From assembly GCF_050003625.1 (NCBI RefSeq), contig NC_134399.1, positions 34,240,671 to 34,304,670 of the forward strand: 64,000 nucleotides of DNA, in the 5' to 3' direction. A program made the position numbers and the translations under genes. Source of the DNA: Haematobia irritans. Taxonomy: Eukaryota; Arthropoda; Insecta; Diptera; Muscidae. This document shows positions 4,102 to 62,646 of this stretch, piece by piece; the first letter of the stretch is position 1, and the number at the start of each line of letters is the position of its first letter. Below the pieces are notes generated by a model. It saw only the letters and a program-made list of their open reading frames with translations, did no database searches and was not told where the DNA came from.

Positions 4102-4410
4102 CATGGTTGCCACTCGAGCCAAAAATGATCTACCAAAATTTTATTTTTATAGAAAATGTCAAAATGTTATTTCTATAGAAAATTTTGTCAAAATTTTATT
4201 TCTATAAAAAATTTTGTCAAAATTTTATTTCTATAGAAAATTTTGTCAAAATTTTATTTCTATAGGAAATTTTTTTCCAAATTTTATTTCTATAGAAATT
4301 TGTTTTCAAAATTTTATTTCTATAGAAATTTGTTTTCAAAATTTTATTTCTATAGAAATTGTTGTCAAAATTTTATTTTTCCAAAAGTTTATTTCTATAG
4401 AAACTTTAAA
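4102..4410 (+). repeat. 29-bp minisatellite element, copy 1 (right end lost)
   Basis: It starts CATGGTTGCCACTCGAGCC, a variant of the family's CACGGTTGCCAC terminus. About nine degenerate 29-bp units follow (TTTATTTCTATAGAAA alternating with TTTTGTCAAAA). The GTGGCAACCGTG right end is absent. It is inserted in the DINE-like element. Open frames rich in F, Y, K and N across it are artefacts of the repeat. Confidence 0.7.
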
Positions 4411-4456
4411 CTTAATTATATACGTATTTAAATGGCCTTTTTTAGTTTAATATATA

Positions 4457-4532
4457 GGTTAGGTTAGGTTAGAGTGGCAGCCCGATTAAATTTCAGGCTC
4501 ACTTAGACTATTCAGTCCATTGTGATACCACA
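4457..4532 (-). repeat. tRNA-SINE tail fragment
   Basis: A TTAGG-type run (GGTTAGGTTAGGTTAG) is followed by the CCCGATT...TTCAGGCTCACTTAGACTA block that also ends the full SINE at 23091-23494, here in reverse orientation. Only the 3' part is present. Confidence 0.7.
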
Positions 4533-4783
4533 TTTAACTAAAAGTACCTATTACATATGGGCACTTCTAGTCTTAAGACTAGAAATATATACCTCGTATG
4601 GACTATGTGGTATATATTACGGTGTTAGGAAGTTTTAAGATACCTTGCCATCGGCAAGTGTTACCGCAACCCAAGTAATTCGATATTGGATGACAGTCTT
4701 CAGTAGAAGTTTCTATGCAATCCATGGTGGAGGGTACATAAGCTTCGGCCTGGCCGATCTTACGGCCGTATATACTTGTTTTA

Positions 4784-9625: not shown

Positions 9626-11714
9626 ACAGAATCGCTTTCTAATTGGATTTAGACATGGCTGTCCCTTTGTCTGTTAATTTATATTTTATTCCCAATATAA
9701 AATACACACATTTTCGATATTTAAGAAATTGGGAAAGGTTTTAATTTTTTTTTTTTTCATTCAATTAATTTTTAATTAAATTTAATACTGATCGACTTCT
9801 GATTTGATTTAGACCTAGTTGTCAGTCCATCTTTTTTTGCCAAATAAAGTTCAAATTTTCACCCTAAATTAATTGGGCACAGGAAAGTTTTTTTTTATTT
9901 TGATATTAGGGAAATTTTATTAAATTAAGGAAAATAATTTTAATAAATTTAGGGAAATTTATATTAATCACCTGCTGAGAGGATTTATATCTGGCTGTTC
10001 GTTCATCAGTTCAATTAGGTTATTCCCAAGTATAAGAACATTTTATTAAATTGAGGAAAGCTTTATTGACCGCATTCTGATTTGATTTAGATCGCACTGT
10101 CTGTCCGTCTGCTCATTTATATTTTGTTCTCTTGATAAAGAATGCAAGTTTAATCCGATATTTCTGATTTGATTTAAACCTGGTTGTCCGTCCAGCTATT
10201 CATTAACATTTTTTTCGCAACACAAAACGATCATTTGGGTTTAACCCAAATTATTTGAGCACAGAAAAGCTTTTTATTTTGATATTAGGAACATTTTGTT
10301 AAATAAAGTAAAATACTTTTATAAATAAAGGAGACTTTTATTGATCAGATTTTGCTTTCATTTAGTCATGGCTGTCTGTCCTTCTGTTCTTTTGTACATA
10401 TTTTTCGCAAGATAAATTTTTGAAATTTTTATCAGATTTTCAATAAATTAGGCATAGGCAATTTTTTTTTATTTTTATTAAAGGAAATTTTTATTATATT
10501 TAGAAAAATAATCTTATTAAATTTCGGAGACTTATATTGGTCGCCTTCTGATTTTCTTTAGGTCTGGTTTAGTTATATTTTGTTCCCAAATATATATTTT
10601 AATTTGATATGAGAACAATTTCGCTAAATTTAGGAAACTTATATTGATCCCCCTTTGATGTCATGTAGACCTGGCTTTCCGTCCATCCCAATTTTTATCC
10701 GATATTAAAGAAATTGGGCCCTTGAAAGTTTTTTATTTTTACTTTCAAATATGGAGCATTTTATTAAATTTAGGAAAATTATTTTATTAATTTTAGGAAA
10801 GGAAATTTTTATTATATTTAGAAAAATAATTTTATTAAATTTCGAAGACTTATATTGGTCGCTTTCTGATTTTCTTTAGGTCTGGTTTAGTTATATTTTG
10901 TTCCCAAATATATATTTTAATTTGATATGAGAACAATTTCACTAAAATTAGGAAACTTACATTGATCCCCCTTTGATGTCATGTAGACCTGGCTTTCCGT
11001 CCATCCCAATTTTTATCCGATATTAAAGAAATTGGGCCCTTGAAAGTTTTTTTTTTACTTTCAAATATGGAGCATTTTATTAAATTTAAGAAAATTATTT
11101 TATTAATATTAGGAAAATATTTTTATTGAATATATTAATAATAAAAATATTTTCCTAAAATTGGGTCCATGAAAGTTTTTTTTTTTATTTTCAAATAAGG
11201 AGCATTTTATTAAATTTTGGAAAATTATTTTATTAATTTTAGGAAAAAAATTAATAAATGTAGGAAACTTATATTGATTATCTTCTGTTTTGATTTATGC
11301 CTAATTATCTGTCCGTCAGTGCATTTATATTTTGTTTCCAAGACAAAAGGCTTAAATTTTTTCCAATGTTTAAGAAATTGACAAAGGAAAGTTCTTTTAT
11401 TTTAATATACGTTTATTTTTTCAATTATGAAAATAATTTGATTAAATTTAGCAAATTTATATTGATCAGTCAGAAGACTGGATTTATACCTGAGTGCCCG
11501 TTCGCATGATAAAAATCGCAATGATAAATACAAAATTTGATTAACTTCAGGAAATAATTTTATTAAATTCACGAGACACATTTTGAGCATCTTCTGACTG
11601 GATTAAGACATGTCTGTCCGTCCATCTGTTCATTTATAACATTGTGCGCAAGATTGAAGGAGCAATTTTTATACGATGTTGAAGAAAATTGAAACAGATT
11701 TTTTTTTCTTTTTT
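9626..11714. repeat. field of degenerate ~200-bp repeats
   Basis: Recurring words GATTTAGACCTGGCTGTCCG, CATTTATATTTTGTTCCCAA, ATCCGATATTAAAGAAATTG and TATTGATC mark about ten diverged units. The field resumes after the DINE-like element B (12997-13160). Within it, 10483-10800 and 10801-11117 are a nearly exact tandem duplication with a 318-bp period. No coding potential. Confidence 0.75.
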
Positions 11715-12996
11715 TATACCCTCCACCATAGGATGGGGGGTATATTAACTTTGTCATTCCGTTTGTAACACATCGAAATATTGCTCTAAGACCCCATAAA
11801 GTATATATATTCTGGGTCGTGGTGAAATTCTGAGTCGATCTGAGCATGTCCGTCCGTCCGTCCGTCCGTCCGTCCGTCCGTCTGTTAAAATCACGCTAAC
11901 TTCCGAACGAAACAAGCTATCGACTTGAAACTTGGCACAAGTAGTTGTTATTGATGTAGGTCGGATGGTATTGCAAATGGGCCAAATCGGTTCACTTTTA
12001 CGTATAGCACCCATATAAACGGACACCCAAATTTGGCTTGCGAGGCCTCTAAGAGAGGCAAATTTCATCCGATCCGGCTGAAATTTGGTACATGGTGTTA
12101 GTATATGGTCTCTAACAACCATGCAAAAATTGGTCCACATCGGTTCATATTTATATATAGCCCCCATATAAACCGATCCCCCGATTTGGCTTACAGAGCC
12201 TCTAAGAGAAACAATTTTTATCCGATCCGGCTGAAATTTGGTACATGGTGTTAGTATATGGTCTCTAACAACCATGCAAAAATTGGTCCACATCGGTCCA
12301 TAATTATATATAGCCCCCATATAAACCGATCCCCCGATTTGGCTTGCAGAGCCTCTAAGAGAAACAATTTTCATCCGATCCGGCTGAAATTTGGTACATG
12401 GTGTTAGTATATGGTCTCTAACAACTATGCAAAAATTGGTCAATATAGGTCCATAATTATATACAGCCCCCATATAAACCGATCACCAGATTTGACCTTT
12501 AGAGCCTGTTGGAAGACCAAAATTTATCTGATGCAGTTGAAATTTGGTACGTGATGTTAATATATGGCCTCAAACACCTATGCAAAAATTGGTCGATATC
12601 GGTCCATAATTATATATAGGCCCCATATAAACCGATCCCCAGATTTGACCCCCGGAGCACCTTGGAAGAGCAAAATTCTTCCCATTCGGTTGAAATTTGG
12701 TACGTGATGTTAGTATAGGGTATCCAACAACCATGCAGGAATTGCTTCCTATCAGTCCATAATAATATATAGCTCCCATATAAACCGATCCCCAGATTTG
12801 ACCTCCGGTGCCTTTTGGAGAAGCAAAATTCATCCGATCTGGTTGAAATTTGGTACGTGGTGGTAGTATATGATATCTAACAACCATGTGAGTTGACATT
12901 TGTGGATGACAGTCTTTCGTAGAAGTTTCTATGCAATCCATGGTGGAGGGTACATAAGATTCGGCCTGGCCGAACTTACGGCCGTATATACTTGTT
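11715..12996 (+). mobile_element. DINE-1/INE-1-like element, copy B (both ends present)
   Basis: Left end TATACCCTCCACCATAGGAT with its GGGGGGTATA partner, a (GTCC)n run at 11849-11880, then 153-bp tandem units phased at 12046, 12199 and 12352 (CCTCTAAGAG starts), then more diverged units. The right end has TTCGGCCTGGCCGAA, a 7-bp stem with a single-base loop, followed by CTTACGGCCGTATATACTTG. Because 153 is a multiple of three, the minus strand stays open for 239 codons (11754-12473); this is probably repeat-driven rather than a gene. The family name rests on remembered architecture. Confidence 0.65.
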
Positions 12997-17553: not shown

Positions 17554-18285
17554 CTAGGAGACAAATCAACGTCTACACATGTGTATTGGATGTATTGAAG
17601 AATACGACATTAGTGCTGTTAGTTAGTTTACAATAAGTTTTATTCATTCACAATAAGTTACTCCTGTGGTTATTGTGAACAGTGTTGCTAACTATTGAGA
17701 AGCAAATGTAGCTAAACCAAACAAAATTAATAGTAGAACATAGACAAAATTTTTAAAAAATAGCCAGAAAAAATAACTAAATTAAGTTTAATTTTTTACT
17801 TGAAATATAGCAAAAGTTAAAAATTGGTAAATCTCACAATACAGTTCATATGGTCCTAACGCCATTTGTCCAATTCAGAACTTCTATTGTTTCCTTTAAA
17901 CTTGGAAATTTTCTATAATGAAATGATTTATCAGACCTCGAGTTTGATAAATCTTTTACGGCCATTTTCATGTAGCTCCGTTAGGCTTTAACTGCCAGTT
18001 AACAGAAAGTAAATTGCAAATATCTTCTCTCCGGTTAACTTTAACTGAATTTTTTTCGTCAGTTAAGTTCCTAACTGGCCTATGGAATATAAAGGCAGGA
18101 TGACAGCTTCGTGTATAATACGGTTTAAAAGTTGGTTAGTTAACGGAACACTAACGGATCTTTATGAAAATGGGGGTTAATTATATATTGAAATTGGAAA
18201 TTTTCATTAAAAAATTAAAAATCAAAGTAATTACGTTTAATAATTTTTTGGAGTTTGTCGAAATATATTTAATTATTTTTGTGAA
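17554..18285. other. intronic DNA, no feature seen
   Basis: AT-rich; GTTAACTT/CAGTTAA-type words recur around 17980-18170. No gene or element ends identified. Confidence 0.35.
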
Positions 18286-19632
18286 ACCGTCGTGACACTA
18301 GCCAACAACAATCAAAATTCGAATGGAAATTTTTACCAAAAATCTTCTAACCAAAATTTTATTTCTAAAAAAAAAATTTCTAAAATTTCATTTCTAAGAA
18401 ATTTTGTCTAAATTTTATTTCCATAGAAAATATTGTCATAATTTTATCTACAGAAAATTTTGTCAACTTCTTTTTCTATAATTTTTTCAAAATTTTTATT
18501 TATACAAAAAATTTTCCCAAATATTTATTTCTATAGAAAATTTTGTCAAAGTTTTATTTCTATAGAAAATATTGTCAAAATTTTGTTTCTACAGAAAATT
18601 TTGTCAAAATTTTTTTTCTGTAGAGAATTATCTCAAAATTTTATTTCTACAGAAAATATTGTCAAAGTTTTGCTTCCATAGAACATTTTCTCAAAATGTT
18701 ATTTCTATAGGAAAATTTCTCAAAATTTTATTTCTAGCGAAAATTTTGTCAGTATTTTGTTTCGATAGAAAATTTTGTCAAAATTTTATTTCCATACAAA
18801 ATGTTGTCAAAATTGTATTTCCATGGAAAATTTTGTCAAAATTTTATTTGTACAGAAAATTTTGTCAATTTTTTTTTCTACAGAGAATTTTCTCAAATTT
18901 TTATTACTATAGAAATTTTTTTCAAAATTTTATTTCTATCAAAATTTTCTCAAATTTTTATTTATATAGAAAATTTTCTCAAATATTTATTTCTATAGAA
19001 GATTTGCTCGAAATTTTATTTATATAGAAAATGTTCTCAAAATGTTCTTTCTAGAGAACATTTTGTCAGTATTTTGTTTCAGTAGAAAAATTTGTCCAAA
19101 TTTTATTTCTATAGAAAATTTTCTCAAAATTTTATTTCTATGGAAAATTTTATCAAAGTTTTATTTCTACAGAAAATTTTCTCAAAATTTTATTTCTATG
19201 GAAAATTTTCTCAAAATTTTATTTCTATATAAAATTTTACTAAATATTTATTTCTATAGAAAATTTTCTCAAAATTTTATTTTTATAGAAAATTTTCTCA
19301 AATTTTTTTCTATAGAAATTTTTGTCAAAAATTTTATTTCGTTAGAAAATTTGGTCAAAATTTTATTTATACAGAAATTTTGGCATAGAAAAATAAAAAA
19401 TTTTTCAAAATTTTATTTCTATAGAAAATTTTGTCAATATTTTATTTTTTTTTAATTGTTATTTCTGTAGAAATTTTTCTCAAAATATAATCTATATAGA
19501 ACATTTGTGGTACCTCTTAGTTGGAAAGGAATATTTGGAAAAATCTTCCATAACATAAATAATTCTAACAATCTAGCAAACAGTAAAAAATCTACCATTT
19601 TTGGTAGAATTCTACCAACTGTGGCAACCGTG
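18286..19632 (+). mobile_element. 29-bp minisatellite element, copy 2
   Basis: About 38 degenerate 29-bp units run from 18350 to 19495. The conserved subterminal block (CTAGCAAACAGTAAAAAATC, GGTAGAATTCTACCAA) and the right terminus GTGGCAACCGTG at 19621-19632 follow. The left end at 18286 (ACCGTCGTGACACTAGCC) is a decayed version of CACGGTTGCCACTCGAGCC. The flanks TTTGTGAA and TTTGTAAT agree at six of eight positions. Forward orientation. Long frames rich in F/K/Y/N are artefacts of the repeat. Confidence 0.7.
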
Positions 19633-36260: not shown

Positions 36261-37074
36261 TTCCTTCGTTTCTTATAACAAAAAAAAACACGCAAACTTC
36301 AAAAACTCTTTGACCATCCCTCGCATATAAAATATATATACATTCATACATACATAGGCCCAAAATTCCATACAATCAATGTTACACATACAATCACAAA
36401 TGATATAACATGAATTCAAAGAGAAAACAAATGAGATGAATTTTATTTAATTCACACTAAATAAATAAAATAAGTTTTACTCTTTTGGTTTGTTCCTTAT
36501 GCTTCTTCCCTCAAACAAACATAGAGGGAAAGGGGTAAAAAAAAACTTTACAAATTTGCCTGTCAAACCTTTTTCACTTTTATTTTTGCACTCAATATCA
36601 AAAACAAAAAACTCGTGCAAATTTGCCACCCTATATTGCAGGTTTACACCTTCTATACCACATGTGTGCATGTGTGTGTAAGGCAAATGTGGTGTTGTGA
36701 TGTGGAACGAATTATTTCCCTTTTGGAAAAAGGGTTGTTTTCACATACACACATGGCTAAACAAACAAATAATTTGTTTTTTTGGTAAACACATATGCTA
36801 GTGTTAGGTGTGTGTATGTGTATTTAAATATTTATTAACCCATTAAATACGTGCTAAATTTACCGAAAAAGTCAATGTGGAGGCAGAACGAATTTGAAAT
36901 AATTGAAGACAATTTTTATGGAAATTTAATTTGAAAATTACTATGGAGTTTTCTATGGTGGCACAGATTAAATGAAGTTTTCGTTTTTGGCAGAACAGAT
37001 AAATTGCTGCTTTTTGGGATCATATTTAACAAACTTTATTTATTACAAGTTCTAGAAAAAAGAGAAGAATAAGA
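36261..37074. other. unique intronic DNA
   Basis: CATACATACATA-type run near 36340 and a TGTGTG stretch near 36665. Overlapping short frames on both strands at 36477-36686 are uninformative. No gene seen. Confidence 0.35.
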
Positions 37075-38452
37075 AAAATTTATTTTACGAAATATTCCTC
37101 TCCAACTAGGAGGTACTTCATAAATTTTCTATTGAAATAAAATTTTGACAAAATTTTCTATAGAATAAAATTTTGACAAAATTTCCTATAGAAATAAAAT
37201 CTTGACAAAATTTTTTATAGCAATAAAATTTTGACAAAATTTTCTATAGAAATAAAATTTTGACAAAATTTTCTATAGAAATAAATTGTTGACAAAATTT
37301 TCTATAGAAATAAAATTTTGACAAAATTTTCTATAGAATAAAATTTTGACAAAATTTTCTATAGAAATCAAATTTTGAAAAAATTTTTTATAGAAATAAA
37401 ATTTTGACAAAATTTTCTATAGAAATAAAATTTTGACAAAATTGTCGAAATAAAATTTTGACAAAATTTTCTACAGAATAAAATTTTGACAAAATTTTCT
37501 ATAAAATAAAATTTTGACAAAATTTTCTATAGAATAAAATTTTGAAAAAATTTTCTATAGAAATAAAATTTTGACAACATTGTCAAAATAAAATGTTGAC
37601 AAAATTATCTATAGAAATAAAATTTTGACAAAATTTTGACAAATTTTCCTATAGAAATAAAATTTTTACAAAATTTTTTTATAGAAATAAAATTTTGACA
37701 AAATTTTCTATAGATATAAAATTTTGACAAAATTTTCTATAGAATAAAATTTTGAAAAAGTTTTCTATAGAAATAAAATTTTGACAAAATTGTCAAAATA
37801 AAATGTTGACAAAATTTTCTATAGAAATAAAATTTTGACAAAATTTTGACAAATTTTCCTATAGAAATAAAATTTTTACAAAATTTTTTTAAAGAAATAA
37901 AATTTTGACAAAATTTTCTATGGAAATAAAATTTTGACAAAACTTTCTATGGAAATAAAATTTTGACAAAATTTTCTATAGAAATAAAATTTTGACAAAA
38001 TTTTCTATAGAAATAAAATTTTGACAAAATTTTCTATAGAAATAAAATTTTGACGAAATTTTCTATAGAAATAAAATTTTGACAAAATTTTCTATGGAAA
38101 TAAAATTTTGACAAAATTGTCAAAATAAAATGTTGACAAAATTTCCTATAGAAATAAAATTTTGACAAAATTTCCTATAGAAATAAAATTTTGACAAAAT
38201 TTTTTATAGAAATAAAATTTTGATAAAATTTTCTATAGAAGTAAAATTTTGACAAAATTTTCTATGGAAATAAAATTTTGACAAAATTTTCTATAGAAAT
38301 AAAATTTTGGCAAATTTTTCTATAAAAACAAAATTTTGAAAAAAATTTCTGAAGAAATAAATTTTTGAAAAATAATATTTTTAGTTTTGGTAGGTTTTGG
38401 TAAATCTTTCTCCAAATTTTGTAAGATTATTTTGTCTCAATTGGCTACCATA
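37075..38452 (-). mobile_element. 29-bp minisatellite element, copy 3
   Basis: Reverse-orientation array (37120-38345) of about 43 units of AAATAAAATTTTGAC plus AAAATTTTCTATAG. Left subterminal TATTCCTCTCCAACTAGGAG and right subterminal TTGGTAAATCTTTCTCCAAA match the family. The right end TTGGCTACCATA is a decayed terminus; the left terminus is not recognisable. Confidence 0.7.
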
Positions 38453-41228: not shown

Positions 41229-42535
41229 CACGGTTGCCACTTGTGCCAAAAATAATCTACCAAAATTTGAAAAAAATATTTGCCAAAGATCTACTTAAAC
41301 TTAAAAAACTCAAAATTTTATTTCCATTGAAAATTTTGTCAAAATTTTATTCCTATAGGAAATTTTGTCAAAATTTTATTTTTATAGAAAAATTTTGTCA
41401 AAATTTTATTTCTATAGAAGATTTTATCAAAATTTTAATTCCATATAAAATTTTGTCAAAATTTTATTTTTATAGAAAATATTATCAAAATTTTATTTCT
41501 AAAGAAATATTTGTCCAAATTTTATTTTTATAGAAATTTTTATCAAAATTTTAATTCTATAGAAAATACTAGCAAAATTTTAATCCTATAGAAAATTTTG
41601 TCAAAATTTTATTTCTATAGAAAATTTTGTCAAATTTTTATTTCTATAGAATATTTTGTCAAATTTTTATTTCTATAGAATATTTTGTCAAAATTTTATT
41701 GCTGTAGAAAATTTCGTCAAAATTTTATTTCTATACAAAATTTTGTCAAATTTTTATTTCTATAGAATAGTTTGTCAAAATTTTATTTCTATAGAAAATT
41801 TTGTCAAAATTTTATTTCTATAGAATATTTTGTCAAAATTTTATTGCTGTAGAAAATTTCGTCAAAATTTTATTTCTATACAAAATTTTGTCAAATTTTT
41901 ATTTCTATAGAATAGTTTGTCAAAATTTTATTTCTATAGAAAATTTTGTCAAAATTTTATTTCTATAGAAAATTTTGTCAAATTTTTATTTCTATAGAAT
42001 ATTTTGTCAAAATTTTATTGCTGTAGAAAATTTCGTCAAAATTTTATTTCTATACAAAATTTTGTCCAAATTTTATTTCTATAGAAAAATTTTGTCAAAA
42101 TTTTATTTCATAGAAAATTTTATCAAAATTTTATTCCTATATTAAATTTTGTCAAATTTTTATTTTTAAAGAAAAGTTTTGTATAGAAATTGTTTTATAT
42201 AGAAAATTTTATCAAAATTTTAATTCCATAGAAAATTTTGTCAAAATTTTATTTTCATAGAAAATTTTGTCTAAATTTTATTTTCATAGAAAAATTTATC
42301 AAAATTTTATTTCTATAGAAAATTTTGTCAAATTTTTATTTCCATAAAAAATTTTATCAAAGTTTTATTTCTATAGAAAATTTTGTTAAATTTTTATTTC
42401 CATAGAAAATTTTATCAAAATTTTATTTCTATAGAAAATTTTGTCAAAATTTTATTTCTATAGAAAATTTTATCAAAATTTTATTTCTAAAGATATATTT
42501 GTCCAAATTTTGTCAAATTTATAGAAAATTCTTTA
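41229..42535 (+). mobile_element. 29-bp minisatellite element, copy 4 (right end lost)
   Basis: Begins CACGGTTGCCACTTGTGCC, then AATAATCTACCAAAATTTG and about 42 forward 29-bp units. A local higher-order period is visible where GCTGTAGAAAATTTCGTC recurs at about 41701, 41851 and 42022. The array stops near 42535 with no GTGGCAACCGTG end. Confidence 0.75.
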
Positions 42536-44364: not shown

Positions 44365-45029
44365 TTGGGGGTTATATTTTTTAAATAATTATTTTTTTTT
44401 TTTAAGTTAAAGATAACTTCCTTTTTCTAAAGGTTCGTTCCATAGAAAAGAAAACACCTCTATCAGTATCTGAGCTTAACACCAATAGAAGACTTTAAAA
44501 ACGGGTTCGAGAGATAGATCACAAAAGTTGATAACTTCATAGAGTAGGTTCCACAACATCGAATTGCAGTTAATAGAGTAGGTTCCTCTGCGCTCTAACT
44601 CAACCTTTTCATACCTTAGAAGCAGCCTTACCGTTAAGGATTTCTAAAAGTTGCTCAAAAAGTATCACTTGCATAAAGGTAGCATAAAAACTGTCACTTG
44701 CCATAAATGACCGCACAGAAAGTGCCACATTTTTTTATAAAGAAAAAATACGAAATTTACTGAAAATTTACTTTGCCTATTTTCGAACTCAACTAAACGT
44801 TGGTATACCTTAGGTTCTACAAAGGTATAATTTCTAAAACTGGCACACTAATTTAAAAAAAGGTGGCACAAAAGTGGCATATTATTTACAGTAAAAAAAC
44901 GAATTAAATGAATTAATTAACTTTTCTATGAAAATATGAAATCGTATTTTTTTAGTTAGACCAAACTAACATGTAACTGAAAATCATACTTGAAATTAAG
45001 AGTTCATGGGGAAACCCTACCTAATATAG
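44365..45029. other. intronic DNA with GTGGCAC repeat fragments
   Basis: 44640-44890 contains the dispersed AAAGGTGGCACAAAAGTGGC-type repeat. No gene seen. Confidence 0.4.
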
Positions 45030-45880
45030 ATAATGTTCTTTGCCAATTTTTAGGCGTCATAGTTTTATTTTATATTATAACATAGAGCCCATTCGGGATC
45101 CATCATAAAGAGATCCGGGATCAAAATTTACGTTAAGTATTGCAAGAAAAGACGTACATTAAAAAGTGGCATAATATAGCAAAAAAGTGGCATAAAAATG
45201 TAAAAAGTATGGCATTTAGTGGCATATTTGTTTCCTAACCACGGTTGCCACTCGAGCCAAAAAGAACCCACCAAAAAATTTGGAGAAAATTTTACCAAAA
45301 ACTAGCAAAAACTAGATAATGTTCTTTGCCTATTTTTAGGCGTCATAGTTTGATTTTATATTATACCATAGAGCCCATTCGGGATCCATCATAAAGAGAT
45401 CCGGGATGAAAATTTACGATAAGTATTGAAAAAAAGTCATACATTAAAAAGTGGCATAATATGGCAAAAAGGTGGCATAAAAATGTAAAAAGCATGGCAT
45501 TTATTGGCATATTTGTTTCCCAACCACGGTTGCCATTCGAGCTAAAAAGAACCCACCAAAAAATTTAGAGAAAATTTTTACCAAAAACTAGCAAAAACTA
45601 CATAATGTTATTTGCCTATTTTTAGGCGTCATAGTTTGATTTTAAAATATACCATAGATCTCATTCGGGATCCATCATAAAGAGATCCGGGATCAAAATT
45701 TACGATAAGTATTGCAAGAAAAGACATACATTGAAAAGTAGCATAATATGGCAAAAAGGTGACATGTAAAAAGCATGGTATTTAGTGGCACATTTGTTTT
45801 CTAAACACGGTTGCCACTCGAGCCAAAAAGAACCCACTAAAAAATTTAGAGAAAATTTTACCAAAAACTAGAAAAAAAAA
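45030..45880 (+). repeat. three tandem copies of a 286-bp unit
   Basis: ATAATGTT is at 45030, 45316 and 45602. Each unit contains TTTTTAGGCGTCATAG, CATTCGGGATCCATCATAAA, a GTGGCATAAAAATGTAAAAA stretch, then CACGGTTGCCA and AACCCACCAAAAAATTT. Each thus joins genomic flank to the first ~70 bp of the minisatellite element. The duplication happened after the element inserted. Confidence 0.9.
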
Positions 45881-46302
45881 ATTATTATGCAAAATTTTAT
45901 TTTTATAGAAAAATTTTCTCAAAATTTTATTTCTATAGAAATATTTTCTCAAAATTTTGCGAAAATTTTATTTCTATAGAAAATTTTGTCAAAATTTTGC
46001 GAAAATTTTATTTCTATAGAAAATTTTGTCAACATTTTATTTCTATAGAACATTTTGTCAACATTTTAGTTTTTTATAGAAATTTTTGTAAACATTTTAT
46101 TTTTATAGAGAATTTTGTCAAAATTTTATTTCTATGGTAAATTTTATAAAAAACTTTATTTCTAAAGAAAATTTGTGAATTACATCTTAGTGGGAGAGGA
46201 ATATTATACAAAATCTACCAAACTATAAACAATTCTACCAATCTACCAAACAGTAAAAAATCTACCAGTTTTGGTAGAATTCTACCAACTGTCGCAACCG
46301 TG
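45806..46302 (+). mobile_element. 29-bp minisatellite element, copy 5
   Basis: CACGGTTGCCACTCGAGCC at 45806, a short array (45885-46170), subterminal ATCTACCAAACTATAAACAA, then GTCGCAACCGTG ending at 46302. The original left junction is preserved in the first 286-bp unit at 45240. It is preceded by TTCCTAAC, while GTCCTAAC follows 46302: seven of eight bases agree with an 8-bp target duplication. Confidence 0.8.
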
Positions 46303-46310
46303 GTCCTAAC

Positions 46311-48655: not shown

Positions 48656-48984
48656 AATTTTATATGGGCTTGTGGAAGTCTTCTTTTTAAACATCCGCTG
48701 CATTAATTTCACATTAGTTCTTCAGATATGATAATATTTAAATATTCCGGTTTTCATTAAAAACAATAATAAGGAAAAATTAAAAACTACAAGTTTTCGT
48801 CTTTTATCTCTACGTAAAGAGCAAATATATCATCGCAAAATTCAAGTTTGCGATAAATGGGTCGGTACATTTCTCCAATATTTTTTTTCGGAATTTTCCA
48901 TTATTTTATTTATCTTTACTGTTTTTTATACACAGATAAAATTTAGAATCTTGCGTAATATAATGGATTTTTATATAAACTTTT
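48656..48984. other. intronic DNA, no feature seen
   Basis: AT-rich, no gene and no element ends. The left terminus of the next minisatellite element should lie at its right edge but is not recognisable. Confidence 0.35.
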
Positions 48985-50165
48985 TTTTTGACAAAATTTT
49001 ATTTCTATAGGAAATTTTGTCAAAATTTTATTTCTATCGAAATTTTTATCAATCTTTTATTTCTATAGAAAATTTTATAAAATTTCCAATTCTATAGGAA
49101 TTTTTGTAAAAATTTCATTTCTATAAGAAATTTTGTCAGAATTTCATTTCTGTAGCAAATTTTGTCAAAATTTCATTTTTATAGAAAATTTTGTCAAAAT
49201 TTCATTTCTATAGGAAATTTTGTCAAAATTTCATTTCTATAGGCAATTTGTCAAAATTTCATTTCTATAGGAAATTTTGTCAAAATTTCATTTCTATAAA
49301 AAATTTTGTCAAAATTTCATTTCTATAGGAAATTTTGTCAAAATTTCATTTCTATAGGAAATTTTGTCAAAATTTCTTTTCTATAGAAAAATTTTGTCAA
49401 AATTTAATTTCTATAAGAAATTTTGTCAAAATTTCATTTCTATAGGAAATTTTGTCAAATTTCCATTTCTATAGGAAATTTTGACAAAATTTCATTTCTA
49501 TAGGAAATTTTGTCAAAATTTCATTTTTATATGAAATTTCGTCAAAATTTCATTTTTATAAAAATTTTTTTCAAAATTTCATTTCTATAGGAAATTTTGT
49601 CAAAATTTCATTTCTATAGGAAATTTTGTCAAATTTTGTCGAAATTTTTATCAATCTTTTATTTCTATAGGAAATTTTGTCAAAATTTCATTTTTATATG
49701 AAATTTCGTCAAAATTTCATTTTTATAAAAATTTTTTTCAAAATTTCATTTCTATAGGAAATTTTGTCAAAATTTCATTTCTATAGGAAATTTTGTCAAA
49801 ATTTCATTTTTATAGAAAATTTTTTCAAAATTTCATTTCTATAGGAAATTTTGTCAAAATTTCATTTCTATAGGAAATTTTGTCAAAATTTCATTTCTAT
49901 AGGAAATTTTGTCAAAATGTCATTTTTTATCAAACTTTTATTTCTATTGAAAATTTTGTTTTTATATAAAAATGTTTACAAAATGTGTATTTATATAGAA
50001 AATTTTGTCAAAAGTGTATTTATATAGAAAATTTGAGAAGTACACCTTAGATGGAGAGGAATATTTTTCAAAATCTACCAAACCATCAAGAATTCTAACA
50101 ATTCACTAAATAGTAAAAAATCTACCATTTTTTGTAGAATTCTACTAAACGTGTGTATAACACGA
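48985..50165 (+). mobile_element. 29-bp minisatellite element, copy 6 (C-variant)
   Basis: About 36 units 48990-50035 in forward orientation. It is a distinct subfamily with TTTCATTTCTATAGGAAA instead of TTTTATTTCTATAGAAAA. The homogenised variant implies local amplification. The right subterminal block (GTACACCTTAGATGGAGAGG, AAATCTACCAAACCATCAAG) is present and the last 20 bp are decayed. It lies 1.0 kb upstream of exon 2. Confidence 0.75.
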
Positions 50166-51769: not shown

Positions 51770-52250
51770 GTAAGGTGATAAATTTTATGAACTTGAATTT
51801 ACTGCCTCCACCTGCAAGACAAAAAAAACTATCATTGCCAAGCAAATGGCAAAGCTCAATAAAGGAAACGGTCATCGGAAGGATAATTTACAACAGGTTG
51901 TTGAGATAACATTTCCAAGTCCACAGTAGTAGTGGATTATTTATAGAGATTGATTGAAACTTCTTACTTAGCCCATATGGGGAATAGACAAAGAGTTATA
52001 ATGCATGGATGCACATGAAATGACTTTCATTTGAAATTCTATTAAGGATCTTTATGGGTGGACCAAACATAAAAGTATAGATTTAGAAAATTAAATTTAC
52101 AAATTTAATGATGTCATCACACAACGCAAAAAGGGTCTGAAAAAAAAGAGCAATGCCGCAAGATATAAATGCAGTTACACAGATAGAAAAAATGTTTGGT
52201 TTCAACTTATTAATATATAAACAACCAATCTTATTTAAATTAATAATAAT
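51770..52250 (+). other. start of the next intron
   Basis: Donor GTAAGG at 51770; a stop follows immediately in the read-through frame (TGA 51776-51778). The rest is unique AT-rich DNA up to the next array. Confidence 0.6.
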
Positions 52251-53828
52251 AAATTTTCAATAGAAATAAAATTTTGACAAAATTTTCTATAGAAATAAAA
52301 TTTTGACAAAATTTTCCATAGAGATAAAATTTTGACAAAATTTTCTATAGAGATAAAATGTTGACAAAATTTTCTCTAGAGATACAATTTCAAAAAAAAA
52401 TTATAGGGACATTATTTTGACAAAATTTTCTATAGAGATAAAATTTTAACAAAATTTTCTATAGAAATAAAATGTTGATAAAATTTTCTATTGAAATAAA
52501 ATTTTGACAAAATTTTCTATAGCAATAAAATCTTGACAAAATTTTCTATAGAGATAAAATTCTGACAAAATTTTCTATAGAAATAAAATTTTGACAAAAT
52601 TTTCTACAGAGATACAATTTTTACAAAATTTTCTATAGAAATAAAATGTTAACAAAATTTTCTATAGAGATAAAATTTTGATAAAATTTTTATAGAGATA
52701 AAATTTTGATAAAATTTTCTGTAGAGATAAAATTTAAAAAAAAAATTATTGGGACATTATTTTGGCAAAATTTTCTATAGAGATAAAATTTTGACAAAAT
52801 TTTCTATAGAAATAACATGTTGACAAAAATTTCTATTGAAATAAAATTTTGACAAAATTTTCTATAGTAATAAAATTTTGACAGAATTCTCTATAGAAAT
52901 AAAATTTTGACAAAATTTTCTATAGAAATAAAATTAGGGCAAAATTTTCGATAGAAATAAAATTTTGACAAAATTTTCTATAGAGACAAAATTTTGACAA
53001 AATTTTCTATAGAGATAAAATGTTGACAAAATTTTCTATAGAGATAAAAATTTGGCAAAATTTCTATAGAAATAAAATTTTGACACAATTTACTTAGAGA
53101 TAAAACTTTGACAAAAATTTTCTATAAAAATAAAATTTTGACAAAATTTTCTATAGAAATAAAATTTTGACAAAACTTTCTATAGAAATAAAATTTTCTA
53201 TTGAAATAAAATTTTGACAAAATTTTCTATAGCAATAAATTTTGACAAAATTTTCTATAGAAATAAAAATTTGACATAAAAATTTATAGGGACAAGATTT
53301 TGACAACATTTTCTAAGAGATAAAATTTTGGCAAAATTTTCTATAGAGATACAATTTTGACAAAATTTTCCATAGAGATAAAATTTTGACAAAATTTTCT
53401 ATAGAAATAAAATTTTGACAAAATTTTCTATAGAAATAAAATTTTGACAAAATTTTCTATAGAAATAAAATTTTGACAAAAATTTCTATAGAATTAAATT
53501 TTGACAAAATTTTCGATAGATATAAAATTTTGACAAAATTTTCTATAGAAATAAAATTTTCTATAGAGATAAAATTTTGACAAAATTTTCTGTAGAAATA
53601 AAATTTTGACAAAATTTTCTATAGAGATAAAATTTTCTATAGAGATAAAATGTTGACAAAATTTTCTATAGAAATAAACTTTAGACAAAATTTTCTATAG
53701 AAATAAAATGTTGACAAAATTTTCTATAGAAATAAAATTTTGACGAAATTTTCTACAGAAACAAAATTTTGACAAAATTTTCTATAGAAATAAAATTTTG
53801 ACAAAATTTTCTATAGAGATTAAATTTG
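52251..53828 (-). repeat. 29-bp minisatellite array, copy 7 (no termini seen)
   Basis: About 54 units in reverse orientation, many with the GAGATAAAATTTTGAC variant and a few degenerate spots (AAAAAAAATTATAGGGACAT recurs about 52395 and 52740). Neither CACGGTTGCCAC terminus nor subterminal blocks were seen, so the element is reduced to its array. It lies 0.5 kb downstream of exon 2. Confidence 0.8.
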
Positions 53829-55413
53829 GATTTTTTTTTAACTTTTAAATTAATTTATCCATTTTCTTTAGTATTAACTAGAACTTTTTTTATCCGTGTA
53901 TAAAGAATTTTTTCAAGTTGATTTTTAATTAAGAAAAATCTACACACGCTTATTCAAGATGTATCTACCACACCGTGAGATTTGCAAAACTCTTCATTTT
54001 TTTCCTAACATAGGCCACTTATAAGTAATGGCAAACTGCATTAAGCAGCCATTATGTTTGCATGATATTTTCACCCATTATAAGCCTTCGACATCCACCA
54101 TAAATCGAGGAACAATGCCTATATGTCAGCAGTATAGCATACAAACGCAAATGCATATATTATGGCGGCGGTGGCAATGGTAACAAGTTTTTCTCATTGA
54201 AAAATTAGCAACGCCTTCGTAACTGCAATACTCCTTGATAAAAAATGCGCCCTACTGTTTTACCTCAAAAAAAAATTCAATGAGATTAAAATTCAATTAA
54301 CTACAACAATTGCCAATATAGAAAAATGCATGCATCCATTAGTCCTCATGGACTGCAAGTTTACGATATTCAAATTCTATACTTCAATTAAAAATTCCCC
54401 AGATTCCAGGCAAAGGTTTGGCTTTGCAATGACATCGTTGTAAAAGAAACCCCTTTTTAACTTAGGACTACAGTGAATCAGTATTGAATTTCAAACTGCT
54501 GCGGTAGCCACTCATGACTGCCGGTTGTAGTTCGAGATTTTATTACCATAAGGCGTTGTTGAATGAATGGCTGCTTATAAAAATATACAAACTGCCATAT
54601 ATCCACATGCATGTATAGGAAGAATGTATGTTTGCCAAAAAAAAAACCGAAAAGTATGGTAAACGTAACGAACGAAATCAGCCATTAATTTGTGCCCTCT
54701 CGTCGTAACACAAAAGTTTTGAGTGGTTTTTTGGTTTTTTTTTTTTCAACAAGTTTTCTTCCCTATGCCATCCATTCTGCGTAAAAGTCGTAATTTTTCA
54801 AGGATAACTGGAGAGCGCATTGAAAGCTGTTTCCTTGCCTTGAAATACTATAGGACAACAACAACAACAAAAACAAAAAAACAAACATGGCTGTCTTCAT
54901 AATAAAAGACGTAACAGCAACCATCAACATTTGCCTCCAACTACGCCATCACATTCCTCCCGTAAAAAAATGAAATCGGAAAAAACGCGCCTGTGCAAAT
55001 TCAGTGAAGGCTTTTAGTTAGTGCTTGACATAAAACTTATAAGAAATTTTGTATGGCCTCACGCATGGTTTACATTATGGGAATTTAAATTATTGATTTT
55101 TTTCTTTTTATTTCAATTTACTCAAGGAAAACTAACAATTATGAAAAATTTCTTTGAAGCGTTTGATTAAGTAGACTTCTAATAACACGTGGTTATGTTT
55201 GACTCAAACCAAAAGCTCATGTATTGCGTTTGCCTTGAGTCCTCTGTTTATTGACCGATGTCAGAGATGACAAATCGTAATAGCAAAATAATAGTTCTGT
55301 TCATTACCTCAAACATGTTGCGCATAACTTAATTTCGGAATACAATATGTCCAAATACTTTGGTAAACTTCTAAGCAATAAAATGAACTGTCACTGGAAT
55401 AAATCTGAAATTG
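53829..55413. other. largely unique intronic block
   Basis: Mixed sequence containing CAACAACAACAACAA near 54860 and TTTTTTCTTTTTATTTCAAT near 55100. The missing third coding exon was looked for (a V-W-F/Y-Q-N-R-R-A-K-W-R coding string after AG) and not found here. Confidence 0.4.
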
Positions 55414-55421
55414 GTTGCAAT

Positions 55422-57821
55422 CACGGTTGCCACAGTTGGTAGAATTCTATCAAAAATGGTAGATTTTTTTCTGTTTGGTAGATTGGTAGAATTCTTGATG
55501 TTACAGAGATAAAATTTTGACAAAATTTTCTATAGAAATAAAATGTTGACAAAATTTTCTATAGAATTAAATTTTGACAAAATTTTCTATAGAGATAACA
55601 TTTTTCTATAGAGACAAAATTTTGACAAAATTTTTTATAGTGATAAAATTTTGACAAAATTTTCTATAGAGATAAAATGTTGACAAAATTTTCTATAGAG
55701 AAAACCTTTTGACAACATTTTCTATAGTGATAAAATTTTGACTAAATTTTCTATAGAAATAAAATTTTGACAAAATTTTCTATAGAAATAAAATTCTCTA
55801 TAGAAATAAAATTTTGACAAAATTTTCTATAGAAATAAAATTTTGACAAAATTTTCTATAGAAATAAAATGTTGACAAAATTTTCTATAGAAATAAAATT
55901 ATGACAAAATTTTCTATAGAAACAAAATTTTGACAAAATTTTCTATAAAATTAAAATTTTGACAAAATTTTCTATAGAAAGAAAATTTTTGACAAAATTT
56001 TCTATAAAAATAAAATTTTGACAAAATTTTCTATAGAACTAAAATTTTGACAAAATTTTCTATAGAAATAAAATTTTGACAAAATTTTCTATAGAAATAA
56101 AATTTTGACAAAATTTTCTATAGAAATAAAATTTTGGCAAAATTTTCTATAGAAATAATATATTGAAAAAAAAATCTATAGAAATAATATATTGAGAAAA
56201 TTTTCTATAGAAATAAAATTTTGAAAAATTTTCTATAGAAATAAAATTTTGACAAAATGTTCTATAGAAATAATATATTGAAAAAAAATCTATAGAAATA
56301 ATATATTGAGAAAATTTTCTATAGAAATAAAATTTTGAGAAAATTTTCGATAGAAATAAAATTTTGAGAAAATTTTCTATAGAAATCAAATGTTGACAAA
56401 ATTTTCTATAGAAATAAAATTTTGACAAAATTTTCCATAGAGATAAAATTTTGACAAAATTTTCTATAGAAATAATATATTGAAAAAAAATCTATAAAAA
56501 TATTATATTGAGAAAATTTTCTCAAAAAATTAAACTTTGACAAAATTTTCTATAGAAATAAAACTTTGGCAAAATTTTCTAAAGAAATAAAATTTTGACA
56601 AAATTTTCTATAGAGATAAAAATTTGACAAAATTTTCTATAGAAATAAAATTATGACAAAATTTTCTATAGAAATAAAATTTTGACAAAATTTTCTATAA
56701 AAATAAAATTTTGACAATATTTTCTATAGAAATAAAATTGTGACAAAATTTTCTATAGAAATAAAATTTTGACAAAATTTTCCATAGAAATAAAATTTTG
56801 ACAAAATTTTCTACAGAAAAAAAACTTTCTATAGAAATAAAATTTTGAGAAAATTTTCTATAGAAATAAAATGTTGACAAAATTTTTTACAGAAACAAAC
56901 TTTGACAAAATTTTCTATAGAATTAACATTTTGACAAAATTTTCTATAGAAATTAAATTGTGACAAAATTTTCTATAGAAATAACATTTTGACAAAAATT
57001 TCTATAGAAATAACATTTTGAAAAAATTGTTTATAGAAATAAAATTTTGTGAAAATTTTCTATAGAAATAAAATTTTGAGAAAATTTTCGATAGAAATAA
57101 AATTTTGAGAAAATTTTCTATAGAAATAAAATGTTGACAAAATTTTCTATAGTAATAAAATTTTGACAAAATTTTCCATAGAGATAAAAATTTGACCAAA
57201 TTTTCTATAGAAATAATATATTGAAAAAAAAATCTATAAAAATATTATATTGAGAAAATTTTCTATAGAAATAAAATTTTGAAAAATTTTCTATAGAAAT
57301 AAAACTTTGGCAAAATTTTCTATAGAAATAAAACTTTGGCAAAATTTTCTATAGAAATAAAACTTTGGCAAAATTTTCTATAGAAATAAAATTTTGACAA
57401 CATTTTCTATAGAAATAAAATTTTGACAAAATTTTCTATAGAAATAAAATTTTGAGAAAATTTTCTATAGAAAAAAAATTTTGAAAAAAAAATCTATAGA
57501 AATAATATATTGAGAAAATTTTCTATAAAAATAAAATTTTGAAAAATTTTCTATAGAAATAAAACTTTGGCAAAATTTTCTATAGAAATAAAACTTTGGC
57601 AAAATTTTCTATAGAAATAAAATTATTTATATAAATATTGTTTATTTTAATCACTTAGTAAATGTATGATAAAAAAGAGAAAGAAGCAGTGGCTGCTAAG
57701 GCTATCAGCTAAGAAATAAAATTTTGACAAAAATTTCTATGGAAATAAAATTTTGAAAAAAAAATCTGCAAAATTTTCTTCAAATTTTGGTAGATTATTT
57801 TAGGGTCGAGTGGCAACAGTG
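55422..57821 (-). mobile_element. 29-bp minisatellite element, copy 8, full length with perfect TSD
   Basis: Left terminus CACGGTTGCCACAGTTGGTA at 55422, right terminus GAGTGGCAACAGTG ending at 57821 (one mismatch). Both flanks carry GTTGCAAT (55414-55421 and 57822-57829). Between them are the subterminal GTTTGGTAGATTGGTAGAAT, about 75 reverse 29-bp units, and TTTTGGTAGATTATTTTAGG. Several subfamilies (AATATATTGA, ACTTTGGC, AAATGTTGAC) form local blocks. A 65-bp non-repeat insertion sits near 57635-57705. No coding; it would need a transposase in trans. Confidence 0.9.
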
Positions 57822-57829
57822 GTTGCAAT

Positions 57830-58835
57830 ACAAACAAACGATGCGTACAGAATACAACGCTCAAACTTCAAAAGCCCACTCTTGCAGTATGGTCACATCC
57901 CTGCAAAAATGTCTTTGAATGAGTTTGTCTCCCACTCTTTCCACATGGTATATTAAACCTTTTAATATATTCATATCATATATCATTAAAATATTTTATA
58001 TTCTTTGTATCAAAATGTATCATTATCTCACCCTATTTCTTTCATGTCATATAAAGTGCATGTAAGGCACTCAACGAATTGAGTTTGAATTGATACACGA
58101 TTTCAATGAGGCTAATTTCAGCAGGTTTGTTTTTTATGATTAAGACAAAAAGCACACAAAATTTAGGGTGCGGATTTGTTTGAAGTATTGCAACAATTGT
58201 TGTAGGTTTTTTGATTTTCAATAATACTTAACCGTATGTTATAAAAAATTGCGCTACAAGTCTTTTGAAGTTTTGCAAAAAAACGTTTTTGAAGTGAAAA
58301 ATGCACAGAAGACTCTTGCATTTTTGTTTTTACATTTAAAAATGCTCATTTAAGATTTCCCTAATTGGTAAAGTAAAAGAAATGTTGAAAAATGTCTTTT
58401 GTCTGCTCTAAGAGCTTCAAAACTCCTCTTAACGAAAACAATGAAGGCTACAAATTTTGTACAATTTCCTTAATAGAGAATTTCTTACCAAATCAAATCA
58501 TTATGGATATTTTGCATTGGATTCAATGTAAATTTGTAATTGCTATTTTATTCTATCCAGTACAGTTCATTGTTGGTTATCTCACAGATGTTGCCAGATT
58601 GAATTACATTTCTGCCAGTCACAATAGCAGGCTATTGTGAATTAAAACAATTCAAAATAAGCTTAGAAAAATTAACGATTTTTGTTGAAAATTAAAACTA
58701 ATAAACTAACTCCGTAGAAATGGAAGAAATTGAATTTGGAATACAAACATGCCCAACTGCATGTTCATCGATCTCAAAATTTACAGAAGACATTTCCAGT
58801 TTTTTTGTAATAAATGTACAAGCACGACCTTGATT
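57830..58835. other. unique intronic DNA
   Basis: No gene or element ends. The frame at 58392-58640 is unrecognised. Confidence 0.35.
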
Positions 58836-59815
58836 CACGGTTGCCACAGTTGGTAGAATTCTACCAAAAAGTGATATAGTTTTTACCGATAGTATTCTTG
58901 ATGTTTTAATAGACTTTGCAAAATATTCCCCTCTAAATAAGAGGTACTTCACAACATTTCTATAGAAATGAAATTAGGAAAAAATTTTCTACAGAAATAA
59001 AAATAGGACAAAAATTTTTAGAGAACTAAAATTTTGACAAAATTTTCTACAGAAATAAAACTTTGAAGAAATTTTCTATAGAAAAATTTTTTTACAAAAT
59101 TTTCTATAGAAATAAAATTTTGAAAAAATTTTCTATAGAAATAAAATTTTGACAAAATTTTCTACAGAAATAAAATTCTGACAAAATTTTCTATAGAAAT
59201 AATATATTGAAAAAAAAATTTTCTATAGAGATAAAAATTTGACAAAATTTTCTATAGAAATAAAATTATGACAAAATTTTCTTTAGAAATAATATATTGA
59301 AAAAAATTTCTATAGAAATAAAATTTTGAGGAAATTTTCGATAGAAATAAAATTTTGACAAAATTTTCTATACAAATAAAATGTTGACAAATTTTTTTAT
59401 AGAAATAAAATTTTGACAAAATTTTCTATAGAATAAAATTTTGACAAAATTGTCTATAGAAATAAAATTTTATTAAAATTTTCTATAGAAATAAAATTTT
59501 TGGCAAAATTTTCTACAGAAATAAAATTTTGACAAAATTTTTTAGAGAAATAAAAATTTGCAAAATTGTATATAGAAATAAAATTTTAATAAAATTTTCT
59601 ATAGAAATAAAATTTTGACAAAATTTTCTATAGAAAAACATGTTTACAAAATTTTCTATAGAAAAAAAAATGTTGACAAAATCTTTTGTAGAGATAAAAT
59701 TTTGACAAAATTTTCTATAGAAATAAAATTTTGAAAAAATTTTCTATAAAACATATTTTTTTTTTGGTAAACATTTCTCCAAATTTTGGTAGATTATTTT
59801 TGGCTTGGAAACACT
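58836..59815 (-). mobile_element. 29-bp minisatellite element, copy 9 (right end decayed)
   Basis: Left terminus CACGGTTGCCACAGTTGGTA at 58836, subterminal TATTCCCCTCTAAATAAGAG, array 58955-59750 of about 27 reverse units, then TTTCTCCAAATTTTGGTAGA and a decayed right end (GGCTTGGAAACACT). Confidence 0.75.
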
Positions 59816-60768
59816 ATATTATTGGCATGCAACAGAAATGTTTGCCAGATCTGCATATCAAGCTTTATGGGGGGGGGGGCAATTTTTTGCCTCCACCTAC
59901 AAAAAAGTTACAGAAAACATTAAGCCTACTTTTACCATATAAATTCCTTCGATAAACTCTTACTAAATTGTTTTCTATATGGGCATTAAACTTTTCATTC
60001 TTATCAAGTACTAAAACAAAACAGACCTATTATTAGATTATACTCCACCAACCCACACATTTTTTTGGGTCCAATGCAAGTGGTTGACAATAATTAAAAA
60101 ACAGAAATCTCCATAACAGGATAATAACATAATTGTAATTATAATCATTGTTGGCTTTCGTATAACCATTTTACCATAATGGTGACAGCCGTCTCTCATT
60201 TCCCTTCCATTGCAAATCTCTTTCTGTTTTGCCTTTCCGTTGCAACTCTGTTTTCCGGTGATTTTCATATCAACGATGCTACCGTTAATTATTTACTTTG
60301 GTATTTTGCATTAATTTGTATAATGAGCTGTTAATTTTTGTTGCAATGCTAACATTGACAAACAAGAGAGAAACAAAAAAACGAGGTGATAGTGAAACAA
60401 CAAGGATAAAAATTGCATAATTATGTAATTAACATTTAAAGCAAAGTAACACAAAAAAAGAGAGAAGAGAAAATAAAAAAACCATTGAAGCGCTAACAAA
60501 GGTTATGACAGAATTATACAGTCAAGGGTATCACAATTCAAAACAAAAAAAAAACACACACACAAGTGTTTAATAGCCGGATAAAATTTTACATTTAAAA
60601 ACAATTGCTCCACTTTTTTTTTTGGACATTACAATTTCAACGGACATTTATCATAGAATTAGATTTGAAGCAAATTTTGTTGTTTTTAAACCATTTCATC
60701 CATACAATACATTAAACCAATGTTGATGACATTGCTAGGCCGTTCGTTCGTTGCTAACGTCTGCAGAT
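59816..60768. other. unique intronic DNA
   Basis: Contains a G9-type run near 59870 and a CA microsatellite near 60555. No gene or element ends seen. Confidence 0.35.
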
Positions 60769-62646
60769 CACGGTTGCCACACGAGCCAAGAATAATCTAC
60801 TAAAATTTGGAGATAATTCTACCAAAAAACTAAAATTTTGTCAAAATTTTATTTCTATAGAAAATTTTTTCAAAATTCCATTTCTATAGAAATTTTTGTC
60901 AAAATTTTATTTCTATAAAAAATTTTGTCAAAATTTTATTTCTATAGAAAAATTTTTAAAAATTCTATTTCTATAGAAATTTTTGTCAAAACTTTATTTC
61001 TATAGAACATTTTGTCAAAGTTCTATTTCTATAGAAAATTTTGTCAAAATTTTATTTCTATAGAAAATTTTGTCAAAATTCTATTTCTAAAGAAAATGTT
61101 GTCAAAATTTTATTTCTATAGAAGATTTTGCCAAAATTTTTATTTCTAGAAATTTTTGTCAAAATTTTATTTCTATAGAAAATTTTGTCAAAATTTTATT
61201 TCTACAGATTTTTTTTATTTCTAAAGAAAATTTTGTCTAAATTCGATTTCTATAGAAAATTTTGTCAAAATTTTATTTCTATAGAAAATTTTGTCAAAAC
61301 TTTATTTCTATAGAAAATTTTGTCAAAATTTTATTTCTATAGAAAATTTTGTCAAAATTTTATTTCTGTAGAAAATTTTGTCAAAATTTTATTTCTATAG
61401 AAAATTTTGTCAAAATTTTATTTCTACAGATTTTTTTTTTATTTCTAAAGAAAATTTTGTCTAAATTCGATTTCTATAGAACATTTTGTCAAAATTCTAT
61501 TTCTATAGAAATTTTTGTCAAAACTTTATTTCTATAGAACATTTTGTCAAAGTTCTATTTCTATAGAAGATTTTGCCAAAATTTTTATTTCTAGAAATTT
61601 TTGTCAAAATTTTATTTCTATAGAACATTTTGTCAAAGTTCTATTTCTATAGAAAATTTTGTCAAAATTTTATTTCTATAGAAGATTTTGCCAAAATTTT
61701 TATTTCTAGAAATTTTTGTCAAAATTTTATTTCTATAGAAAATTTTTTCAAAATTTTATTTCTACAGATTTTTTTTATTTCTAAAGAAAATTTTGTCTAA
61801 ATTCGATTTCTATAGAAAATTTTGTCAAAATTCTATTTCTATAGAAATTTTTGTCAAAACTTTATTTCTATAGAACATTTTGTCAAAGTTCTATTTCTAT
61901 AGAAAACTTTGTCAAAATTTTATTTCTATAGAAAATTTTGTCAAAATTCTATTTCTAAAGAAAATGTTGTCAAAATTTTATTTCTTTAAAAAATTTTGTC
62001 AAAATTTTATTTCTGTAGAACATTTTGTCAAAATTTTATTTCTATAGAAAATTTGGGAAAATTTTATTTCTATAGAAAATTTTGTCTAAATTCGATTTCT
62101 ATAGAAAATTTTGTCTAAATTCTATTTCTGTAGAAAATTTTGTCAAAATTTTATTTCTATAGAAAATTTTGTCAAAATTTTATTTCTATAGAAAGTTTTG
62201 TCAAAATTTTATTTCTATAGAAAATTTTATCAAAATTTTATTTCTGTAGAAAATTTTGTCAAAATTTTATTTCTATAGAAAGTTTTGTCAAAATTTTATT
62301 TCTATAGAAAATTTTATCAAAATTTTATTTCTATAGAAAATTTTGTCAAAATTTTATTTCTATAGAAAATTTTATCAAAATTTTATTTCTGTAGAAAATT
62401 TTTTCAAAATTTTATTTCTATAGAAAATTTTGTAAAAATTTTATTTCTACAGAAAATTTTGTAAAAATTTTATTTCTATAGAAAATTTTGTCAAAATTTT
62501 ATTGCTATTAAAAATTTGTGAAATGACTCTTGGTTGCCGAGGAATATTTTGCAAAATCTACCAAAACATCAAGAATTCTACCAATCTACCAAATAATAAA
62601 AAAATCTACAATTTTTGGTAGAATTCTACCAACTGTGGCAACCGTG
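60769..62646 (+). mobile_element. 29-bp minisatellite element, copy 10, full length
   Basis: Left terminus CACGGTTGCCACACGAGCCA at 60769, about 58 forward units, subterminal AAATCTACCAAAACATCAAG, right terminus GTGGCAACCGTG ending 62646. Flanks CTGCAGAT (60761-60768) and CTTCAGAT (62647-62654) agree at seven of eight bases. A local higher-order period is visible: TTTCTACAGATTTTTTT plus CTAAATTCGATTTC recurs at about 61200, 61425 and 61760. Confidence 0.88.

Follow-up and report, generated by a model that had tools for sequence, protein, structure and literature searches.

The window analysed here, 64,000 nucleotides of Haematobia irritans DNA (NC_134399.1, positions 34,240,671 to 34,304,670), contains a family of repetitive elements whose body is a tandem array of a 29-bp unit. 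The members are probably non-autonomous, cut-and-paste transposons resembling miniature inverted-repeat transposable elements (MITEs), mobilised most likely by an Ac-type hAT transposase, with minisatellite bodies that grow separately in each copy. A sequence-only reading of the window had proposed that the minisatellite is carried inside a mobile element with terminal inverted repeats (TIRs); the underlying observation is confirmed, and that interpretation, supported in most of its parts, is borne out by fixed ends, a fixed polarity of the units and target-site duplications (TSDs).

Tandem Repeats Finder recovers the 29-bp unit in arrays at ten places, the number previously noticed. The arrays yield 391 full units, with 9 to 73 units per array, and span 0.3-2.1 kb, which agrees with the earlier range of 0.3 to 2.2 kb at its lower bound and replaces the upper one. 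The unit constitutes up to 88% of a copy (2120 of 2400 bp in copy H), and the open reading frames over the arrays are repeat-coded only. Outside the arrays no unit-like match occurs before position 57708, and the first 20 positions listed all lie at 57708-57727, inside copy H. This copy is interrupted at 57625-57708 by about 85 bp of other sequence, located between the array and the last unit beside the left end.

The terminus CACGGTTGCCAC, allowing up to two mismatches, has 12 matches in the window, compared with a mean of 0.62 and a maximum of 4 in 100 shuffles. All 12 lie beside arrays, 32-637 bp from the array edge, the two largest distances being those at copy E, whose left end is triplicated; no such terminus without a neighbouring array is present in the 64 kb. 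The TIR is 12 bp long, and behind it the left and right ends are dissimilar, with subterminal blocks of about 63 bp and about 130 bp, respectively. Pairwise identity among the right ends is 0.71-0.85 (degenerate copy C left out). Their consensus contains TGGTAGA five times and TCTACCA once, while that of the left ends contains TCTACCA once together with one near match. The inverted terminus and the fixed left and right subterminal blocks of the earlier description are thereby upheld. Both ends are recognisable in six of the ten arrays (B, C, E, H, I, and J), with degeneration in the left end of B, the left end of I, and both ends of C. In all nine arrays that keep an end, the units are oriented alike with respect to the two dissimilar ends.

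Five copies can be read at both flanks (H, J, E, B, and I; copy C left out), and in three of them the 8-bp flanks are duplicated: 8/8 in H (GTTGCAAT), 7/8 in J, and 7/8 in E. Random pairs of 8-mers from the window reach at least 7/8 at a frequency of 0.0027 and at least 6/8 at 0.016. Copy E matches at 7/8 when the outermost of the three left ends is used, and at 5/8 with the innermost. These values are the ones previously reported, including a fourth match of 6/8 (copy B), which is reached after a 1-bp shift. The pattern nTnnnnAn fits six of the seven independent target sites (A, B, D, E, H, and J, not I) against a background of 0.133, which by our own arithmetic corresponds to a binomial chance of about 3e-5. 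The dinucleotide TA at positions 4-5, characteristic of the Buster pattern nnnTAnnn, is found only in D (ATTATGAT) among the seven; in the sites of A (TTCATAAT) and E (TTCCTAAC) it is located at positions 5-6. Copy A starts at a point where the window's 153-bp repeats, when uninterrupted, read CATAATTATA (four matches); the empty site cannot be closed, because the right side of the copy is lost. The sequence in which copy A is inserted is related to these period-153 repeats.

The 29-bp unit combines an 11-bp module, AAAATTTTGTC, with an 18-bp module, AAAATTTTATTTCTATAG, and the two alternate almost strictly. There are 377 regular pairs, with 11-11 junctions at 7 places and 18-18 junctions at 14, partly at array edges. 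Folded as DNA, a dimer of the unit reaches -12.2 kcal/mol (z = -5.3), the single unit has z = -1.7, and two genomic stretches give z = -5.7 and -2.6. Neither TGGTAGA nor GTGGC occurs in 11,442 bases of array, and the idea that the array supplies additional transposase-binding sites was rejected on this basis, although other motifs may still have a binding role. Alignment of the unit with the left subterminal block scores 31, against a shuffle maximum of 30 (0/300), the other combinations being reached in 9, 31, and 58 of 300 shuffles. Because both sequences are AT-rich, a possible derivation of the unit from the left block is only a weak lead.

For most arrays, unit identity differs little within and between arrays. 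Relative to a simple star expectation, the excess of pair identity is no more than 0.017 in nine of the ten and 0.066 in F, which contains a variant unit that has spread; this star-like bulk would imply that the copies began with arrays of the same unit. Superimposed on it is local ancestry: the nearest relative of a unit belongs to its own array in 44% of cases, compared with 12% for shuffled labels, and in all ten, derived changes are shared more often by units of the same array than by units of different arrays. Blocks of five successive units were compared by shared substitutions only, with 300 column shuffles (A and E are too short). Block duplications beyond all 300 shuffles are found in six of the eight testable arrays (C, D, F, G, H, and J). 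A block score of at least 4 is reached by 32 of 6194 within-array pairs with F left out, 20 of 351 pairs in F, and none of 49805 pairs between arrays, the within-array counts being non-independent since the blocks overlap. Duplicated blocks are 5 to 46 units apart. A block seemingly common to G and H was an artefact of an 11-bp deletion counted as many shared changes, and disappears when only substitutions are used. Because the multi-unit block duplications are confined to single arrays, the arrays appear to grow copy by copy, that is, within single copies or their private lineages, and we infer that the duplications came after insertion. Of the expansion and contraction proposed earlier, the former is supported by the block duplications; contraction is not shown. 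A lag test for higher-order repeats gives weak signals in eight arrays, the observed value being reached in 4 (G), 15 (H), 23 (C), 60 (J), 140 (D), 186 (F), 219 (B), and 432 (I) of 500 permutations. Over nine copies, divergence ranges from 0.06 to 0.22 in the ends and from 0.04 to 0.12 in the arrays; copy C combines the most decayed end with the least diverged array.

In hAT elements, the TSD of 8 bp is accompanied by TIRs of 5-27 bp, with nnnTAnnn as the target site of the Buster type (PMC3517528), and Hermes prefers nTnnnnAn (PMC10368747). Assignment to the P superfamily, or to another one with 8-bp duplications, would leave the rest of the interpretation standing. P elements also duplicate 8 bp, and T2/A7 alone cannot separate them from hAT, because their target motif GTCCGGAC likewise has T at position 2 and A at position 7 (PMC3276498); moreover, Tetris, with TSDs of 8-9 bp and internal repeats, was left unclassified for want of an autonomous partner (PMC4079207). 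Such an assignment is nevertheless improbable: P TIRs are 27-31 bp long in Anopheles (PMC1562414), a range that excludes the 12 bp found here, which fall within the hAT range, and the six T2/A7 sites are AT-rich, unlike GTCCGGAC. Taken together, the 12-bp TIR, the 8-bp TSD, and the nTnnnnAn sites fit an Ac-type hAT element better than P or Buster. The earlier choice of hAT, P or a similar superfamily can be narrowed in favour of hAT by TIR, TSD, and T2/A7, with P disfavoured by its TIR length. The terminus consensus of hAT elements is YARNG; in CACGG, A2 and G5 fit, while C3 does not.

Very improbable is an independent, dispersed minisatellite that adjoins transposon ends by chance or was captured by several elements. 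Array G, which lacks a family end, would agree with it, as would the different motif TACAC[AG]GATA that adjoins both F and G, but a family end with the same polarity accompanies nine of the ten arrays, and all 12 terminus matches are found beside arrays. Arrays lacking both termini, if common, had been named beforehand as counting against a mobile carrier; the one such array in ten neither refutes nor settles the matter. The array lengths and block structure might instead have been fixed in different source elements before insertion, the inserted copies being inert and subject only to decay. The star-like bulk of the arrays is compatible with this, yet it seems unlikely, as the substitutions of duplicated blocks are not shared as blocks with the other tested arrays, and each block-bearing copy would need a private source. 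Since the duplicated blocks share private substitutions, their units were already divergent when the blocks were copied.

Several observations weigh against hAT-mobilised elements with individually growing arrays, the explanation preferred here. Besides array G, three arrays keep one end only: the left in A and D, and the right, with its outermost bases replaced, in F. The flanks of copy B match at 3/8 at the first boundary, and their 6/8 is the best of 81 shift pairs; those of copy I match at 4/8, at best 5/8 over shifts, which amounts to no duplication. None of the six frames of the window scanned as translations holds a transposase, and no autonomous copy is seen; membership in the Ac-type hAT group is accordingly unproven. 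A cytosine as the third base of the terminus is unusual for hAT. Block duplication is absent from B and I, where 44 and 299 of 300 shuffles, respectively, reach the maximum, and the best block of copy C is weak (score 2.5). To these are added the non-independence of the within-array pair counts mentioned above and the lack of correlation between end and array divergence over the nine copies (Spearman -0.02).

In the proposed mechanism, the transposase acting on the family in trans would be of the Ac-type hAT group, with its gene elsewhere in the fly genome. It would recognise the 12-bp terminus together with the dissimilar subterminal blocks, whose TGGTAGA/TCTACCA repeats are perhaps transposase-binding. 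The body would be an array of the two-module unit, the modules together being prone to form hairpins. Copies would initially carry arrays of a single common unit. Their units would then decay mostly independently, while slippage, unequal exchange, or repeat-mediated gap repair might duplicate multi-unit blocks in individual copies. Array length may be no obstacle to mobility, because copy H keeps both ends and a perfect 8-bp duplication with 73 units. A more comprehensive picture is tentative: an hAT-mobilised element that is almost entirely hairpin-prone minisatellite, whose every transposition seeds an independently evolving locus, whose mobility long arrays may not prevent, and which has a second, TACAC[AG]GATA-ended carrier in F and G.

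Transposons carrying tandem arrays are a known kind of element; the family itself seems undescribed. In the open-licence literature it was not found in print by its sequence letters, no transposon-titled paper was among those listed for near variants of the terminus, and no hAT MITE with a minisatellite body was met by title or the start of the abstract, leaving out the Brassica hAT-MITE (PMC7385995). For MITEs with minisatellites in Musca domestica, the only paper retrieved concerns a mariner element of a hookworm. The exact pattern of the 29-bp unit has no match in collections of viral contigs and genome contigs, the exact right-end pattern has none in viral contigs, and the right end has none in a phage collection. 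A single match of a right-end 21-mer among the genome contigs, in Epilithonimonas hungarica, is taken as chance because the similarity stops at the 21-mer.

Tandem arrays within transposons are described for miDNA4 and Xstir/Xmix from Xenopus, DTC84 from Donax, and Pearl-type elements from bivalves (PMC9659126, PMC12628747, PMC7492417). The family resembles such tandem-repeat MITEs in being non-coding, with short TIRs, TSDs, and an internal array of variable length. In contrast to the 8-bp TSDs and hAT-like sites found here, miDNA4 is of the Tc1/mariner type, and a hAT element is absent from the examined part of the table in the same source (PMC9659126). Tetris with TIR-220 from Drosophila virilis, which had been offered as a comparable case, shares the non-autonomous nature, a TSD of 8-9 bp, and changes in repeat number. 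It is a foldback element, with TIRs of up to 1,735 bp holding repeats of about 220 bp, whereas the family has 12-bp TIRs and an array between dissimilar ends (PMC4079207); the parallel is fair, but since the Tetris repeats lie inside long TIRs, tandem-repeat MITEs such as Xenopus miDNA4 are the closer match. The long, repeat-containing TIRs of foldback elements are not found in the family, as its ends diverge after 12 bp and each array has a single polarity. Helentrons are Helitron-class elements that are not known to have an 8-bp TSD or a terminal inverted repeat of the family's kind. The family resembles those of the Cg_HINE (bivalve) and DINE (Drosophila) types in that dispersed short arrays form the centre of non-autonomous transposons (PMC7492417, PMC9659126). 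Galileo, a foldback element of the P superfamily, is another fly DNA transposon with internal tandem repeats; these are said to hold additional transposase-binding sites (PMC4079207), whereas TGGTAGA is missing from the 11.4 kb of array examined here. Mar and Vege, hAT MITEs of Drosophila, are likewise AT-rich and non-coding, with TIRs of 11-12 bp and 8-bp TSDs; Mar differs by its Buster-type nnnTAnnn sites, and the relevant passages on Mar and Vege mention no minisatellite body (PMC3517528). According to a model cited in PMC7492417, mobility falls as repeats increase. Copy H, with 73 units, has both ends and a perfect duplication, although some of the units may be later additions.

Table 1. 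Copies of the family and associated structures in the window
Feature	Position	Strand	Description
Copy A	4102..4430	+	Left end and short array of 9 units; right end not found
Copy B	18285..19632	+	Degenerate left end, 40 units, intact right end; flanks 6/8 after 1-bp shift
Copy C	37014..38449	-	43 units between the inner part of the right end and a degenerate left end
Copy D	41229..42511	+	Intact left end, 40 units; right end not found
286-bp unit, three in tandem	45027..45877	+	Left end of copy E with about 213 bp of adjoining flank; 91% matches
Copy E	45240..46302	+	Left end in three tandem versions (45240, 45525, 45806), 10 units, right end; flanks 7/8
Copy F	48986..50153	+	35 units, among which a variant unit has spread; tip of the right end replaced; left-hand TACACAGATA at 48929
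Array G	52176..53900	-	55 units (52251-53827), neither family end; bounded by inverted TACACAGATA / TACACGGATA
Copy H	55422..57821	-	Right end, 73 units, left end; flanks 8/8 GTTGCAAT
Copy I	58836..59815	-	Right end, 27 units, degenerate left end; flanks 4/8, no duplication
Copy J	60769..62646	+	Left end, 59 units, right end; flanks 7/8

Exact matches to TACACNGATA occur at only three places in the window (48929-48938, 52176-52185, and 53891-53900), each 47-65 bp away from an edge of F or G. The two at G are in inverted orientation, perhaps as the ends of a second TIR element that would carry the array. With one mismatch allowed there are 23 matches, against 9.7 expected. The choice of this motif was post hoc.

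The window would be calyptrate-fly-like DNA, probably lies at a Vsx gene, and includes a Vsx-like homeobox exon. The frame at 51110-51778 contains a homeodomain (Pfam, 46/57 profile positions), and a protein search with it (best 120 of 148 matches) gives two best matches of 96% and 92% identity. These are followed by Glossina proteins with 92-93% identity over 36-37% of the query, and then by a protein of Hermetia named goosecoid, along with numerous visual-system homeobox proteins. Other repeats of the window comprise the period-153 tandem family (3485-3993, 12003-12888, 25510-25786, and 63618-64000; the period is 143 in one array) and two further sets of 23-bp minisatellites (9905-11280 and 33731-34938), the second of which is organised in a higher period of 430 bp. 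The stretch 28001-32000 is very AT-rich (GC 0.15). Just to the right of copy A, at about 4457-4472, lies the telomere-like GGTTAGGTTAGGTTAG, perhaps at the start of another dispersed repeat.

With ten arrays within 64 kb, of which nine are linked to transposon ends, the window offers near-replicates of a single starting minisatellite at different sites. Minisatellite growth thereby becomes measurable: shared substitutions reveal the order of block duplications inside a copy, whose age can be roughly estimated from its ends. Should the family be frequent genome-wide, it would contribute substantially to the dispersed minisatellites of this fly and to length variation close to its genes.

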